From Akkermansia muciniphila (GTDB lineage: Bacteria; Verrucomicrobiota; Verrucomicrobiia; Verrucomicrobiales; Akkermansiaceae), in assembly GCA_945874895.1 (NCBI GenBank), contig CAMCIC010000009.1, forward strand, positions 1 to 64,000: 64,000 nt of DNA, in the 5' to 3' direction. Of the stretch, positions 17,725 through 21,669 are shown one piece after another (position 1 is the stretch's first letter; each line of letters opens with the position of its first letter). Below the pieces are notes generated by a model. The model was given only the letters and a program-made list of their open reading frames with translations, did no database searches and was not told where the DNA came from. Both the position numbers and the translations under genes were made by a program.

Positions 17725-19830
17725 TCAGAACTGCGTGCGGATGCCGGCGACGATGCCGCGGCCAGCGAGCGGGGCGATATCGCGCACGAATGATGTGCTG
17801 AGGCGTGCCTCCTCATCGGTCAAATTGACACCGCGCAGGAAACAGGTGGACTCTACTCCGGCGATCGTGGTCTTATAACTGATGCCCGCGTTGATAAGGA
17901 AGAAGCTGTCCGTGGGTAATTCGTTTTCCGGCACACGATTTTGATCGGCGGAGTATTGTCCTTCGAGATAGGAGGTGAAAGGACCAGTGCTGTATTCCAC
18001 GGTGGCACCGGCACGGAAAGGCGCGATGCGTGGCAGGGCTTGGTTCGTGTCACGATTTTCCGTATGGACATAATCTGAGCGCAGAATCACATCGAGTCGA
18101 CGCTCGTGCGCCGCTGCCTTGCCCTCCGCTTGTTCCGCGGTAATCGGAGCGTGAAGGTGGAAAACGGTCTCGAGTTCGAAGCCGCAGAAATCGGCATTCA
18201 CGGCTTCGAATTGGAAAATCGGCAATTCCTCGTGCTCGTGAGCCCCTCCATCGCCATGCTCCTCTTCATGAAATGCACCCGTATTACGCAGGTTGATAAA
18301 GTCGTGGAAGCGATAGTAGTAGGCGTTCGCAAAACCCGTTACCCCGCCTGTCTTTTTGCGGATGCTCAGATCGAGAGAAAGGGATTCTTCATTGCTGAGA
18401 TCAGAATCCCCTTGCTCAAAGCTGCCCGTGGCATAGTGCGGTCCGTTCGCAAACAATTCCATGTTGGTCGGCGGACGCTGGGTGTAAGCCGTGGAGGCGG
18501 ATGCCGCATACTCTTCGGTGATGTGGTAAATCATACCCGTGGAGGCGCTGAATCCCATGTTGTCGACGTCGAGCGTGGGACCAAGATCGTCCGTGGCCAG
18601 GCGCTCATTGCTGTGATGGTCGAGACGCATGCCGAATTGGTAGCGCAGTTTCCCGAACTCTTTTTCTTCCAGGAAAAACACCGAGTGCTTCTGGGTATCG
18701 ACGGGAGGCACGAAGGCTTCTTCTCCTACCGCCGAAAAGTCGGAGACTTGGATCTCATAACCGAATGTCCCCTCGAAGCCCGCGACTTCCTTGTGCATGC
18801 ATTCGAGACGACCGTTGAAGCCTTCGATGTCGAAGCGTGTTCCGATTTCTGCTCCTTCAAACTCTGTGTGATGGTAATCGGAATAGCCTAGGTTGAAACG
18901 GATCTCTCGCAGGAACGACAGCGGCTCATAGATGGCTCCACGCACATCGTAACGCTGTTGTTGCATGCCGATGGTGACATCGTCTTTGGCCACCACACCG
19001 TAGTCAGAATCCATGCCGGAAACGGAGAAGCCGAGGAAGCCGTTTTCAAACACATGCGAGGCACCGAATCCGAAACCTTCGGTATCAGCCGCGCTGTTCG
19101 GCACAAAACCACGGGCTTGTTCTTGATCCGGTTCATCGATGGCGCGCTGGGCTGCGGAGCGTGCAAAGCCGGGAATTTCGAGGTTGCCCATCTCGCGGTG
19201 AAAATAATCGAAATGCAAGACCCAGGGCCCCGAGCCCCAGTTGAGGTCCACGCTCTGCGAAAAGGAATCGTCGGGTGTGCCCGCCATCAGTCCAAAACTG
19301 CCCGAGGGAGCGCTACCCGTGAAACGTTCTTCGGCAATGCGGCGGTCGATGACATTCACCACGCCGCCCACGGCGTTGGGCCCGTAGAGCAGAGTGGAAG
19401 GCCCGCGAACGATTTCGATGGATTGTGCGGACAAGGGATCGGCGGAAACGGCGTGGTCAGGGCTGAGATTCGCCGCATCCAAAATTGAAGTGCCGTTTTG
19501 CAGCATCCGCACACGATCATCTCCCAAACCGCGCAACACGGGTCGGCTCGAGGCAGGAGAAAAGCCGGTGGAACTGACTCCCGGCAAACGATTCAGCGTT
19601 TCGCCCAAGGTCGGTTCCACGCGTAGCATCAAGCGCTCTTCGGAAAGTTTGTAGGAAGGCTGGATTTGCTCGAAAATGGTTTGTTCTCCACGGTTCGCGG
19701 TGACCACCACTTCATCGAGAACGTTCGCTGATTCCTTTTCTTTTTCGGCCGACTCCGGTTGCGGTGTTTGCGCATAGCAGAGTGATAGGGGCAGTAAGGG
19801 CAAGAAGGAAAAAATGCGTTTGGCTTTCAT
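17725..19830 (-). CDS. znuD: ZnuD-like TonB-dependent outer-membrane metal receptor
   Basis: The 701-residue receptor has a signal peptide (MKAKRIFSFLPLLPLSLCYA), a TonB box/plug start (LDEVVVTANR) and a plug with the ZnuD-type signatures FSPASSRPVLRGLGDDRVRM, SPDHAVSADPL and IEIVRGPSTLLYGPNAVGG. A 22-strand barrel follows and ends in Phe. The last part (LTDEEARLSTSFVRDIAPL) also fits the ZnuD subfamily. An extracellular loop holds an acidic/His cluster, HEEEHGDGGAHEHEE, suited to capture of zinc or a similar cation. ZnuD takes up zinc in Neisseria; zinc is the best guess here, though copper or nickel cannot be excluded. It probably uses a TonB motor like the one at 1.2-6.2 kb. Confidence 0.85.
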   Translation of the reverse strand: MKAKRIFSFLPLLPLSLCYAQTPQPESAEKEKESANVLDEVVVTANRGEQTIFEQIQPSYKLSEERLMLRVEPTLGETLNRLPGVSSTGFSPASSRPVLRGLGDDRVRMLQNGTSILDAANLSPDHAVSADPLSAQSIEIVRGPSTLLYGPNAVGGVVNVIDRRIAEERFTGSAPSGSFGLMAGTPDDSFSQSVDLNWGSGPWVLHFDYFHREMGNLEIPGFARSAAQRAIDEPDQEQARGFVPNSAADTEGFGFGASHVFENGFLGFSVSGMDSDYGVVAKDDVTIGMQQQRYDVRGAIYEPLSFLREIRFNLGYSDYHHTEFEGAEIGTRFDIEGFNGRLECMHKEVAGFEGTFGYEIQVSDFSAVGEEAFVPPVDTQKHSVFFLEEKEFGKLRYQFGMRLDHHSNERLATDDLGPTLDVDNMGFSASTGMIYHITEEYAASASTAYTQRPPTNMELFANGPHYATGSFEQGDSDLSNEESLSLDLSIRKKTGGVTGFANAYYYRFHDFINLRNTGAFHEEEHGDGGAHEHEELPIFQFEAVNADFCGFELETVFHLHAPITAEQAEGKAAAHERRLDVILRSDYVHTENRDTNQALPRIAPFRAGATVEYSTGPFTSYLEGQYSADQNRVPENELPTDSFFLINAGISYKTTIAGVESTCFLRGVNLTDEEARLSTSFVRDIAPLAGRGIVAGIRTQF

Positions 19831-19839
19831 GGCGCGACG

Positions 19840-19868
19840 AATGTCATGCAAAAGAATTGCATGCGCAA
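19840..19868 (-). promoter_or_regulatory. Predicted znuD-like promoter with a palindromic operator as spacer
   Basis: On the minus strand TTGCGC (19863-19868) and GACATT (19840-19845) sit 17 bases apart, about 10 bases before the ATG. The whole spacer is a palindrome, ATGCAA-5-TTGCAT (19846-19862). A regulator bound there would cover the polymerase site. The -10 match is weak (3 of 6). Confidence 0.4.
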
Positions 19869-19893
19869 GAAATAAATGCAATTTTTATGCAAT
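19846..19893. promoter_or_regulatory. Cluster of four ATGCAA half-sites (candidate metal-responsive operator)
   Basis: ATGCAA or its complement occurs at 19846-19851, 19857-19862, 19876-19881 and 19887-19892. Starts are 11 bases apart within each pair, about one helix turn. The first pair is inverted and the second pair direct. Placement upstream of a zinc-type receptor suggests a Zur- or Fur-like repressor site, though the sequence is not a classical Zur box. Confidence 0.4.
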
Positions 19894-20268
19894 AGCAAGT
19901 TTCATGGGTTTGTGGATTTGGCGGCGAAGTCCAGGGAGGCGGATTGGGATACGACGGATGGCACGGACGGTTGCATCATTCTCCAATCCTATTTCTCATC
20001 TGAATCCCCATCTCGTAAAATATCTTCCTTGTCCTTCGTGCCCGCTTCCACCGTTTCATTCATAAAATCCGTACAATCCGTGAAATCCGTCGTAAAACAA
20101 TGCATCGTCTAGACTTCGCGCGCCACTCTTGCGCGGAATCATCCCCATCGGATCCATGAAGGAATCGTTTCCACTGTTCCGATCTCCATGGATCTAAGAT
20201 GAGACCGATGGATTCGTCACGCATCACATCATTTCCCCGTCTTGATCGCCGTGGATCTTACCGACCCA
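19894..20268. other. Non-coding interval between znuD-like gene and der
   Basis: Apart from the inverted AATCCGT element, nothing was recognised. Reading frames of 60-86 codons exist on the plus strand, but they run through the repeat and have no plausible start signal or recognisable protein pattern. No tRNA or riboswitch fold was seen. Confidence 0.5.
19950..20094. repeat. Intergenic element with 18-bp imperfect inverted ends built from AATCCGT units
   Basis: TACGACGGATGGCACGGA (19950-19967) pairs 16 of 18 with TCCGTGAAATCCGTCGTA (20077-20094). The right end is three tandem 9-mers AATCCGTNN (20066-20092). A related tract, on the minus strand reading AATCCGTACATTCGTCGTATCCC in two pieces, lies near 17555-17580, on the other side of the receptor gene. 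These resemble short dispersed intergenic repeats rather than coding sequence. Confidence 0.45.
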
Positions 20269-21669
20269 TCAATGGCTCTTTTGCGAAAACGTACTGGGCG
20301 AAAGATCGCGACGCTCGCGGGATCTCGGGGAAAACACGGTGGGAATGCCGGGTGCGGGATGGCTTTCGCGCATCTGGTGGGTGAGGTATTGACTGTAGCT
20401 TTGGCTCAGTAGCTTTTTGTCGTTCACGAACAGAATGTAGGTGGGCACGGGGATCAGCTCGCTGGTTTTGTCGGTGGCCACCGTGCCGTAGTAGAGCTTC
20501 ATGCGGCGCTTGAGCTTCGAGTCGATGGGCGGCGGGTTTTTCTCGATGGCTTTTTGCAGGATGCGATTGAGAATGCCCGTGGTGGGATACTTCTGCGCCT
20601 GGTTGCGGATCTTGATGGCCTCTTTCAGCACCAGTTCCACCGAATCGTTTTCTTTGGCCGAGACCACGACAAACGGTGCGTAATCGAGGAAAAACAGCTC
20701 GCGTTTGACGTGATCGGTAGCCTCATCCATGCGGGCTTTTTTCTTGGCGCCAGGGTGGTAGAGATCGAACTTGTTGAGCACGATCAGACACGGCTTGTTT
20801 TCCGATAGAATGAGCTGGGCGATCTTGCGATCCTGAGCGGTGATGCCGGAGGCGAGGTCGATGACCAACAGGCAGAGATCGGCGCGGCGAATGGCTTTCT
20901 CCGTTCGCATGGCCGAGAAAACCTCCACGGAGGTGTCGCGCTTGGAGCGTGGACGCAGTCCCGCGGTGTCGATGAGGGTGAAGTATTCGTTCTTGAACTT
21001 GCAGGGCAGATCAATGGCATCGCGCGTCGTGCCAGCGATGTCCGAGACGATGGTGCGCTGGTCTTGCAAAATGGCATTGGCCAGCGAGGACTTGCCGGCA
21101 TTCGGCTTGCCAACGATGGCGATGCGGATGCCTTCCGGCTGGCGCATCTCGGGTGTTTCTCCTTCAGCAGGGGAAATGGGTTCCAGCGCGGCATCGATGG
21201 CATCCACCAGTTCGCCGAAATTGCGACTATGTTCGGCGGAGACGGGAATTCCCTGCCCCAACCCGAGTTTGGCGAAATCACTCCAGGCGGATTCGTGTTT
21301 GTCGTGATCCACTTTGTTCATCACCAACAGCACGGGAGCTTTGGCCTTGCGAAGCTTTTGCCCGAGTGCGGAATCGATCGCGGTGATGCCATCGTGAGCA
21401 TCCACCACAAACAAAATCACGTCCGCCGTGGCGATAGCGATGTCCGCCTCCAGCGCGACTTGCTCGGCAAAGCCGTCATCGAGCGTGGCACCGATGCCGC
21501 CGGTATCGACGATTTCGCAGGGAAACTTCGTCAGTTTCGCAGGAGCGGCCAGGCGGTCACGGGTGATGCCGGCCTGATCGTGCACGATGGCGATTTTGCG
21601 CCCGACAAGGCGATTGAACAGAGCGGACTTCCCCACATTTGGGCGACCAACGATAGCGACAGTGGGCAT
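20269..21669 (-). CDS. der: Ribosome-biogenesis GTPase Der (EngA), tandem GTPase
   Basis: The 466-residue protein has two GTPase domains followed by a KH-like domain, the Der architecture, and acts in 50S ribosome assembly. Domain 1 has GRPNVGKS, DTGG and NKVD; domain 2 has GKPNAGKSS, DTAG and NKFD. The KH-like region (about 360-440) ends with IPVPTYILFVNDKKLLS. The tail after it is rich in Ser and Arg. The gene is monocistronic, and its promoter overlaps the region upstream of the divergent NTF2-like gene. Confidence 0.97.
   Translation of the reverse strand: MPTVAIVGRPNVGKSALFNRLVGRKIAIVHDQAGITRDRLAAPAKLTKFPCEIVDTGGIGATLDDGFAEQVALEADIAIATADVILFVVDAHDGITAIDSALGQKLRKAKAPVLLVMNKVDHDKHESAWSDFAKLGLGQGIPVSAEHSRNFGELVDAIDAALEPISPAEGETPEMRQPEGIRIAIVGKPNAGKSSLANAILQDQRTIVSDIAGTTRDAIDLPCKFKNEYFTLIDTAGLRPRSKRDTSVEVFSAMRTEKAIRRADLCLLVIDLASGITAQDRKIAQLILSENKPCLIVLNKFDLYHPGAKKKARMDEATDHVKRELFFLDYAPFVVVSAKENDSVELVLKEAIKIRNQAQKYPTTGILNRILQKAIEKNPPPIDSKLKRRMKLYYGTVATDKTSELIPVPTYILFVNDKKLLSQSYSQYLTHQMRESHPAPGIPTVFSPRSRERRDLSPSTFSQKSH

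Follow-up and report, generated by a model that had tools for sequence, protein, structure and literature searches.

Paired palindromes upstream of a ZnuD-like receptor gene of Akkermansia muciniphila as probable operators of a zinc uptake repressor

Introduction

In the window (the whole 64,000-nucleotide stretch of Akkermansia muciniphila DNA that was analysed), the gene of a TonB-dependent receptor is preceded by a perfect 17-bp palindrome. This raises the question of which regulator such a site serves and which signal the receptor gene answers to. The answer developed here is that the palindrome is one of a pair, and that the pair is very probably a set of docking sites for a zinc-sensing repressor that would shut down zinc uptake under zinc-replete conditions. 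This mechanism of zinc control is an ordinary one, and its host belongs to a group in which such control is hardly described, with only one predicted Zur site found in the searchable literature. For this group, the analysis yields a zinc-response motif of practical use and a candidate for the zinc sensor. With this motif, genes of the zinc-starvation response can be listed in these genomes, and one genus, called g3 below, is conspicuous for an apparently different way of handling zinc uptake.

Paired boxes upstream of the receptor gene

The palindrome ATGCAAAAGAATTGCAT is an exact ATGCAA-N5-TTGCAT, as the original prediction had stated, and it is the sole exact match in the window (Table 1). 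Across the 2.92-Mb draft genome, TGCAAN5TTGCA is found without mismatch at three sites and, judging from the flanks, only the one at the receptor extends to ATGCAA...TTGCAT. The two extra ATGCAA copies that had been noticed nearby are indeed present, from 19876 and from 19887, 11 bases apart, but they are better read as a single imperfect box, which we call the distal box and whose centre lies 30 bp upstream of the centre of the proximal one. Paired boxes, 29-30 bp apart, also precede the receptor orthologues of two other genomes (G042 and G023).

Table 1. Coordinates of the features discussed; positions refer to the window unless a contig is named.
Feature	Position	Strand	Remarks
ZnuD-like TonB-dependent receptor, 701 aa	17725..19830	-	Start ATG at 19830
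Proximal Zur-type box ATGCAAAAGAATTGCAT	19846..19862	.	Predicted
7-1-7 core of the proximal box	19847-19861		Minus-strand letters TGCAATTCTTTTGCA; 16 nt before the receptor start codon
Distal Zur-type box TGCAATTTTTATGCA	19877..19891	.	Predicted; imperfect 7-1-7 palindrome; minus-strand letters TGCATAAAAATTGCA
Promoter of the original prediction (TTGCGC 19868-19863, GACATT 19845-19840)	19840..19868	-	Not supported
L018, Fur-family protein, 147 aa	G000:C3:253649-254089		Next to ruvB, on another contig than the receptor

Both boxes fit the relaxed pattern YGCAW-N5-WTGCR, which is found 82 times in the own genome versus 17 times for the reversed control pattern. About 1.8 such boxes are expected per 64 kb, and the window contains exactly two, both upstream of the receptor. 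Their number is therefore ordinary but their placement is not, since a single upstream region holds both, 30 bp apart, and two relaxed boxes in the 300-bp receptor upstream region were obtained in none of 500 dinucleotide shuffles. Matching the palindrome with up to two mismatches was dropped as a measure, since it gave four sites in the window against 4.65 expected, which is chance level. A search of 19500-20400 returned no Rfam family, and ATCCGT-type phrases are seen by eye to be repeated at 20060-20105, between the receptor gene and a Der-type GTPase gene.

The receptor itself carries the Pfam Plug and TonB barrel domains, both over their cut-offs, and its best match among PDB sequences is ZnuD (4rdr, E 1.7e-43), which we take to come from Neisseria and with which it shares this plug-and-barrel architecture. 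It belongs to a distant lineage, and although it matches the NCBIfam ZnuD model NF038289 with an E value of 2.6e-88, its 297.4 bits are under the 950-bit cut-off, so that we name it ZnuD-like and not ZnuD proper. By eye, the N terminus MKAKRIFSFLPLLPLSLCYA resembles a signal peptide, and a His-rich stretch HEEEHGDGGAHEHEE is seen in the protein.

We scored the upstream regions of 17 of 30 receptor loci (L021-L037), the weaker matches L038-L050 being left out and two more matches, of about 36-37% identity, having no locus. A box scoring 10/10 was found within 300 bp in 7 of the 17, while shuffles gave a mean of 0.29 and a largest value of 4. Three others have a 9/10 box, a kind of site whose frequency comes near to chance (0.09 per 300 bp in the control), and the last seven remain below 9/10 within 300 bp. 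In nine records of ZnuD-like receptors from other lineages (L081-L089), no 10/10 box was found within 350 bp and a single one had a 9/10 box, so the receptor gene does not bring the box along with it.

The same box at znuA genes across the family

The idea of a Zur-type Fur-family regulator is supported by the upstream regions of metal genes, where the predicted enrichment of the box was found. We searched 117 genomes of the family and examined the znuA upstream regions of 111, counting distances from the start of the protein match and not from a mapped gene start. The count leaves out G102 (no match), G003 (cut by a contig end) and G065, G096, G109 and G114, in which the matches are weak and paralogue-like. 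A 10/10 relaxed box lies within about 350 bp of 72 of these 111 znuA orthologues, the own one included, versus a mean of 1.16 in dinucleotide shuffles of the same regions, with the reservation that box counts are not fully blind, sites in the own genome and in relatives having guided the choice of the relaxed pattern. The profile search of the own genome and the class-wide scan described below are cleaner tests in this respect. Elsewhere around the first 30 znuA loci, the box occurs 3 times in 101,962 positions. Upstream of MntA-type paralogues it is never found at 10/10 (0/18) and once at 9/10.

The form of the box could be read from these sites. Among the 111 upstream regions, 65 contain YGCAAN5TTGCR, 12 contain TGCAAN5TTGCA and 9 contain the exact 17-mer ATGCAAN5TTGCAT; the majority form is TTAAYGCAAnTTACTTGCRTTA, and the own znuA carries a degenerate box, CGCATATGTGTTGCG. 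The inner letters of the half-sites are symmetric by definition of the score. Further out, the arms of the 72 boxes pair at dyad offset 9 in 51 cases and at offset 8 in 40. The centre is asymmetric, with pairing at offset 2 in 4 of 72. The position left of the three central bases is mostly A (41, with 12 C), and the one to their right mostly C (45, with 11 G).

A candidate regulator

The own genome has three genes of the Fur family, all over the Pfam cut-off: a Fur-like one (L016), a PerR/Irr-like one (L017) and L018. The last of these reaches 51.3 bits for the FUR domain against a cut-off of 23.1, and 18.6 bits, under the 167-bit cut-off, for the NCBIfam Zur model NF008646, a model presumably built on E. 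coli-type Zur. In 16 of 16 aligned members, C98xxC101 and C139xxC142 are invariant, which corresponds to the two-CxxC structural zinc site. C54 and H131 are invariant as well, and H92, C111 and E117 nearly so. Across 34 rows of another alignment, H92, E117 and H131 are invariant and D94 is at least 90% conserved. The Zur of Streptomyces has a Cys-containing regulatory site, to which no obvious counterpart is seen in the L018 alignment. Sequence searches for solved relatives return Fur, Zur and PerR alike, and the same mixture is found with the predicted model (mean pLDDT 86.5), for which Fur-family structures, again PerR, Fur and Zur, are the best 50 Foldseek matches. The metal sensed by L018 is thus indicated by its predicted targets and not by its fold.

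Most of the family has a strong L018 homologue, but genus g3, with 13 genomes, gave no match. The 10/10 box at znuA is present in 70 of the 92 genomes with a strong homologue versus 2 of the 19 without (Fisher p 1.2e-7, a value that overstates the association because the genomes are related), and when 9/10 is allowed, these counts become 83/92 and 4/19. Genus g3 supplies 13 of the 19 regulator-free genomes, and once it is removed p is 0.04 on the six that are left, again overstated by relatedness. There are exceptions in both directions: 22 of the 92 regulator-bearing genomes are without a 10/10 box at znuA, of which 13 have a 9/10 one, and the two genomes with the box and no strong L018 match (G054 and G068) are both drafts. 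Two regulator-free genomes, G010 from the genus of the window and G069 from genus g13, have no box at znuA, and G010 has none at its receptor either. The 13 genomes of g3 likewise lack a receptor match at E <= 0.001, and none of them has a 10/10 box at znuA; the whole zinc circuit is apparently lost or lacking in this genus.

Gene neighbourhoods connect the regulator to the boxed genes. An L018-type gene is divergent from znuA in G015, with the box in between (L249), and lies near ZnuD-like receptors with boxes in G114, G031 and G040 (L251, L252 and L253). It is near znuA in G029, with no box there; in the receptor neighbourhood of G011 no box was found; and in G004 the Fur-family protein encoded near znuA is a more distant relative (24% to L018). 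The loci L252 and L253 have the appearance of a zinc island with four boxes, a TonB protein, choice-of-anchor M proteins, a ZnuD-like receptor and a Zur-type gene, the domains being those read in L252. We conclude from these sequence comparisons that L018 is likely the Zur of this organism.

How the boxes would work

We consider it highly probable, on the comparative evidence, that the paired sites before the receptor are operators of Zur, the dimeric Fur-family repressor of zinc uptake, with L018 as the most likely regulator. On the model of Zur in other bacteria (PMC6103462), zinc-loaded dimers would occupy both 7-1-7 boxes and block transcription of the receptor. When zinc is scarce, Zur would leave the boxes, and the receptor and ZnuA would be made together, since the own znuA stands under the same kind of box; the periplasmic zinc-binding protein would in this manner be co-regulated with the outer-membrane receptor. 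Cooperative binding by the paired boxes is possible, as 30 bp amounts to about three helical turns. We infer by analogy the binding of Zur, the nature of the metal, the sign of the effect (repression and not activation) and any cooperation between the boxes.

The boxes could instead be bound by the Fur-like L016 or the PerR/Irr-like L017, in which case the receptor would answer iron or peroxide. Both proteins are Fur-family members over the Pfam cut-off, and 7-1-7 boxes are also used by Fur and PerR, so that the architecture of the site is not special to one member of the family (for Zur, see the available text of PMC6103462); the distant Fur relative near znuA in G004 would also fit. We nevertheless regard this as improbable. 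The box precedes znuA, ZnuD-like and ZigA genes, all of them zinc genes by annotation, and is absent at 10/10 from the 18 MntA-type paralogues. Moreover, 17 of the 19 genomes without a strong L018 homologue have no 10/10 box at znuA, including two that retain a different Fur-family relative (G010 and G069), while L018-type genes adjoin znuA or boxed receptors in several genomes.

The next alternative concerns the promoter. The original prediction had the palindrome exactly filling the spacer of a promoter, and one may imagine a true metal-regulator site that forms the spacer of a sigma-70 promoter and blocks RNA polymerase at exactly that spot. The hexamers TTGCGC and GACATT are indeed found on either side of the palindrome, 17 bp apart, and Zur boxes often overlap promoter elements, according to the available text of PMC6103462. 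The promoter assignment itself fails, however. Each hexamer has, by manual count, 3 of 6 matches to its consensus (TTGACA and TATAAT), a scan of 19600-20300 returned no minus-strand promoter, and in the two closest orthologues (G042 and G023) both hexamers are replaced while both boxes are kept; the exact-spacer promoter was rejected. In addition, GACATT ends 9 bases ahead of the ATG at 19830, and a transcript starting there would have almost no leader. There is therefore little probability that the boxes work in this precise geometry. Finally, a palindrome arising by chance in an AT-rich intergenic stretch would agree with the two-mismatch count and the 82 relaxed boxes of the genome, and it is very unlikely in view of the shuffles of the own upstream region, the pairs at the same spacing in two orthologues and the recurrence of this box at znuA, in the own genome as in others.

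Relation to known Zur sites

A Zur operator being the preferred reading, its box can be compared with those already described. The original prediction had called the box unfamiliar, which does not stand: its core equals the Zur site ATGCAACnnnGTTGCAT that was proposed in 2004 for two Desulfovibrio genomes, before znuABC-zur, in the part of PMC545781 available to us. The Desulfovibrio site and the box described here are alike in their 17 bp, their half-sites ATGCAA and TTGCAT, their spacing and the kind of their target, a zinc ABC transporter. They differ at the bases flanking the three central ones, which are C and G in the Desulfovibrio consensus given there and A and A here (19852 and 19856). 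Relatives within the family often have YGCAA...ACTTGCR, unlike this consensus. The same text quotes the Gram-positive Zur consensus TAAATCGTAATNATTACGATTTA. The Zur boxes of other phyla in the available text of PMC6103462 share the 7-1-7 palindrome for a Fur-family dimer and differ from ours in the bases of the half-site; two Zur boxes per promoter are known there from S. coelicolor znuA and B. subtilis yciC.

Closer to the host, in Luteolibacter yonseiensis a palindrome preceding zepA was described in 2024 as resembling a Zur site, with zepA lying near a Fur-family gene in PVC species (PMC10957091, as far as its text was available). This is a predicted Zur site and a single instance in the PVC superphylum, and we liken it to our boxes by description and not by letters. 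The setting of zepA is comparable to L252 and L253, where an island of PEP-CTERM/choice-of-anchor proteins is found with a TonB protein and a receptor with four boxes. The open-licence literature that was searched gave no further account of a Zur motif in this bacterial group.

Profile searches and other candidate targets

A profile built from 24 znuA boxes of other genomes, the own genome being left out, listed eight places in the own genome, in rank order C1:316762 (inside a coding region), C6:85213, C8:96880, the own znuA, C3:219048, C1:119324 and the two receptor boxes, the proximal one seventh (E 7.6) and the distal one eighth (E 8.8). Three of the eight are thus at the two zinc-uptake genes, znuA and the receptor. 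The profile alone is no proof of a site, because its E values are weak (0.16-8.8) and scoring covered 150 of its 760 first-look candidates. The other five places show no zinc gene by eye and were not retained as a wider regulon of this genome, and box-like letters in L100, L102, L103 and L104 were set aside in the same way, lying in or at genes apparently unrelated to zinc. With R2, a wider profile of 74 sites that excludes the own genome, the distal box is the best match of the own genome (E 0.27), and the proximal one is not among the matches at E <= 3. Around two other metal transport loci of the own genome, the results were as follows. No 10/10 box was found in the 6 kb examined for the ABC-3 permease at C8:112940. 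On contig C23, there is a metal ABC cluster (L019, L116 and L117) with two permeases, a ZnuA-family protein and an ORF that we name DtxR/MntR-like by eye; for L019, the best scores of the first pattern are 9/10.

R2 was also searched in ten genomes of the genus, and we read 12 loci among the matches listed; for znuA and the receptor of other genomes, its matches mostly come from its own training set. A box precedes a COG0523 GTPase in three of the 12 (L265, L269 and L274), a His-rich protein in two (L272, with a weak BBP2 match, and L273) and a choice-of-anchor M protein in L279. Two others lie by a pilin-like gene (L261 and L275), and L275 has no 10/10 box. The remaining sites, L268, L280, L281 and L282, show no zinc gene by Pfam or fall in coding sequence; the one in L282 may precede a TonB/ExbB pair, as judged by eye. 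Concerning the zinc-chaperone GTPase ZigA, the 21 close homologues in the family have a 10/10 box in six cases and a 9/10 box in three. The 10/10 test is independent of R2, to whose training set one of the six sites (G019) belonged. The own genome has no match to ZigA.

The class-wide scan used no gene information and covered 141 genomes, with 56 first-look candidates scored in each. It returned six places in five genomes at E <= 0.01, a threshold that is strict because even the family members of the sample gave no match. All six are outside the family, and none was in the training set. The box stands before ZigA-type GTPases over the NCBIfam cut-off in L315 and L316 and before an OprB-type porin in L319. 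Two boxes are found in L317 (G153), 35 bp apart at the start of a TonB receptor, and in L318 (G238), 139 bp apart upstream of a BBP2-type porin; no zinc gene is in sight in L314. Given L317 and L318, which belong to other families, paired boxes may be a recurring layout.

A broader reading of these data, which we hold as tentative and rather doubtful, is that the family, and probably much of the class, has a Zur sub-family of its own, with a YGCAAnnnACTTGCR box and unusual targets in its regulon. Such a sub-family would be marked by a CPVH motif, by an invariant Cys immediately before the predicted helix 56-68 and by having no obvious counterpart to the Cys-containing regulatory site, and its box would either be shared with Desulfovibrio or have been reached independently there. 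Among these targets would be a pilin-like gene pair and, ahead of the receptor, the coding sequences of short secreted peptides rich in His and Cys.

Two further observations concern these genes. In L261 and L275, the gene after the pilin-like one encodes a product with LEPLIAHIDIDPRY close to its start, and a strong box precedes the pair in L261; if real, the pair would be an unusual Zur target. As for the receptor loci, L025, L026, L030 and L032 have, by eye, a short ORF ahead of the receptor, about 135-830 bp upstream of the receptor match. In L025 and L032, which are among the seven loci below 9/10 within 300 bp, 9/10 sites lie 500-830 bp upstream, by this short ORF. The encoded products have a leader-like start, a His/Cys-rich middle (such as HKECHNDADDPAHEC and HDHCHGHSHEPDHTC) and an end in PPRGP or PPRAP. 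They are candidate secreted zinc-binding peptides, and the short ORF is perhaps in one operon with the receptor.
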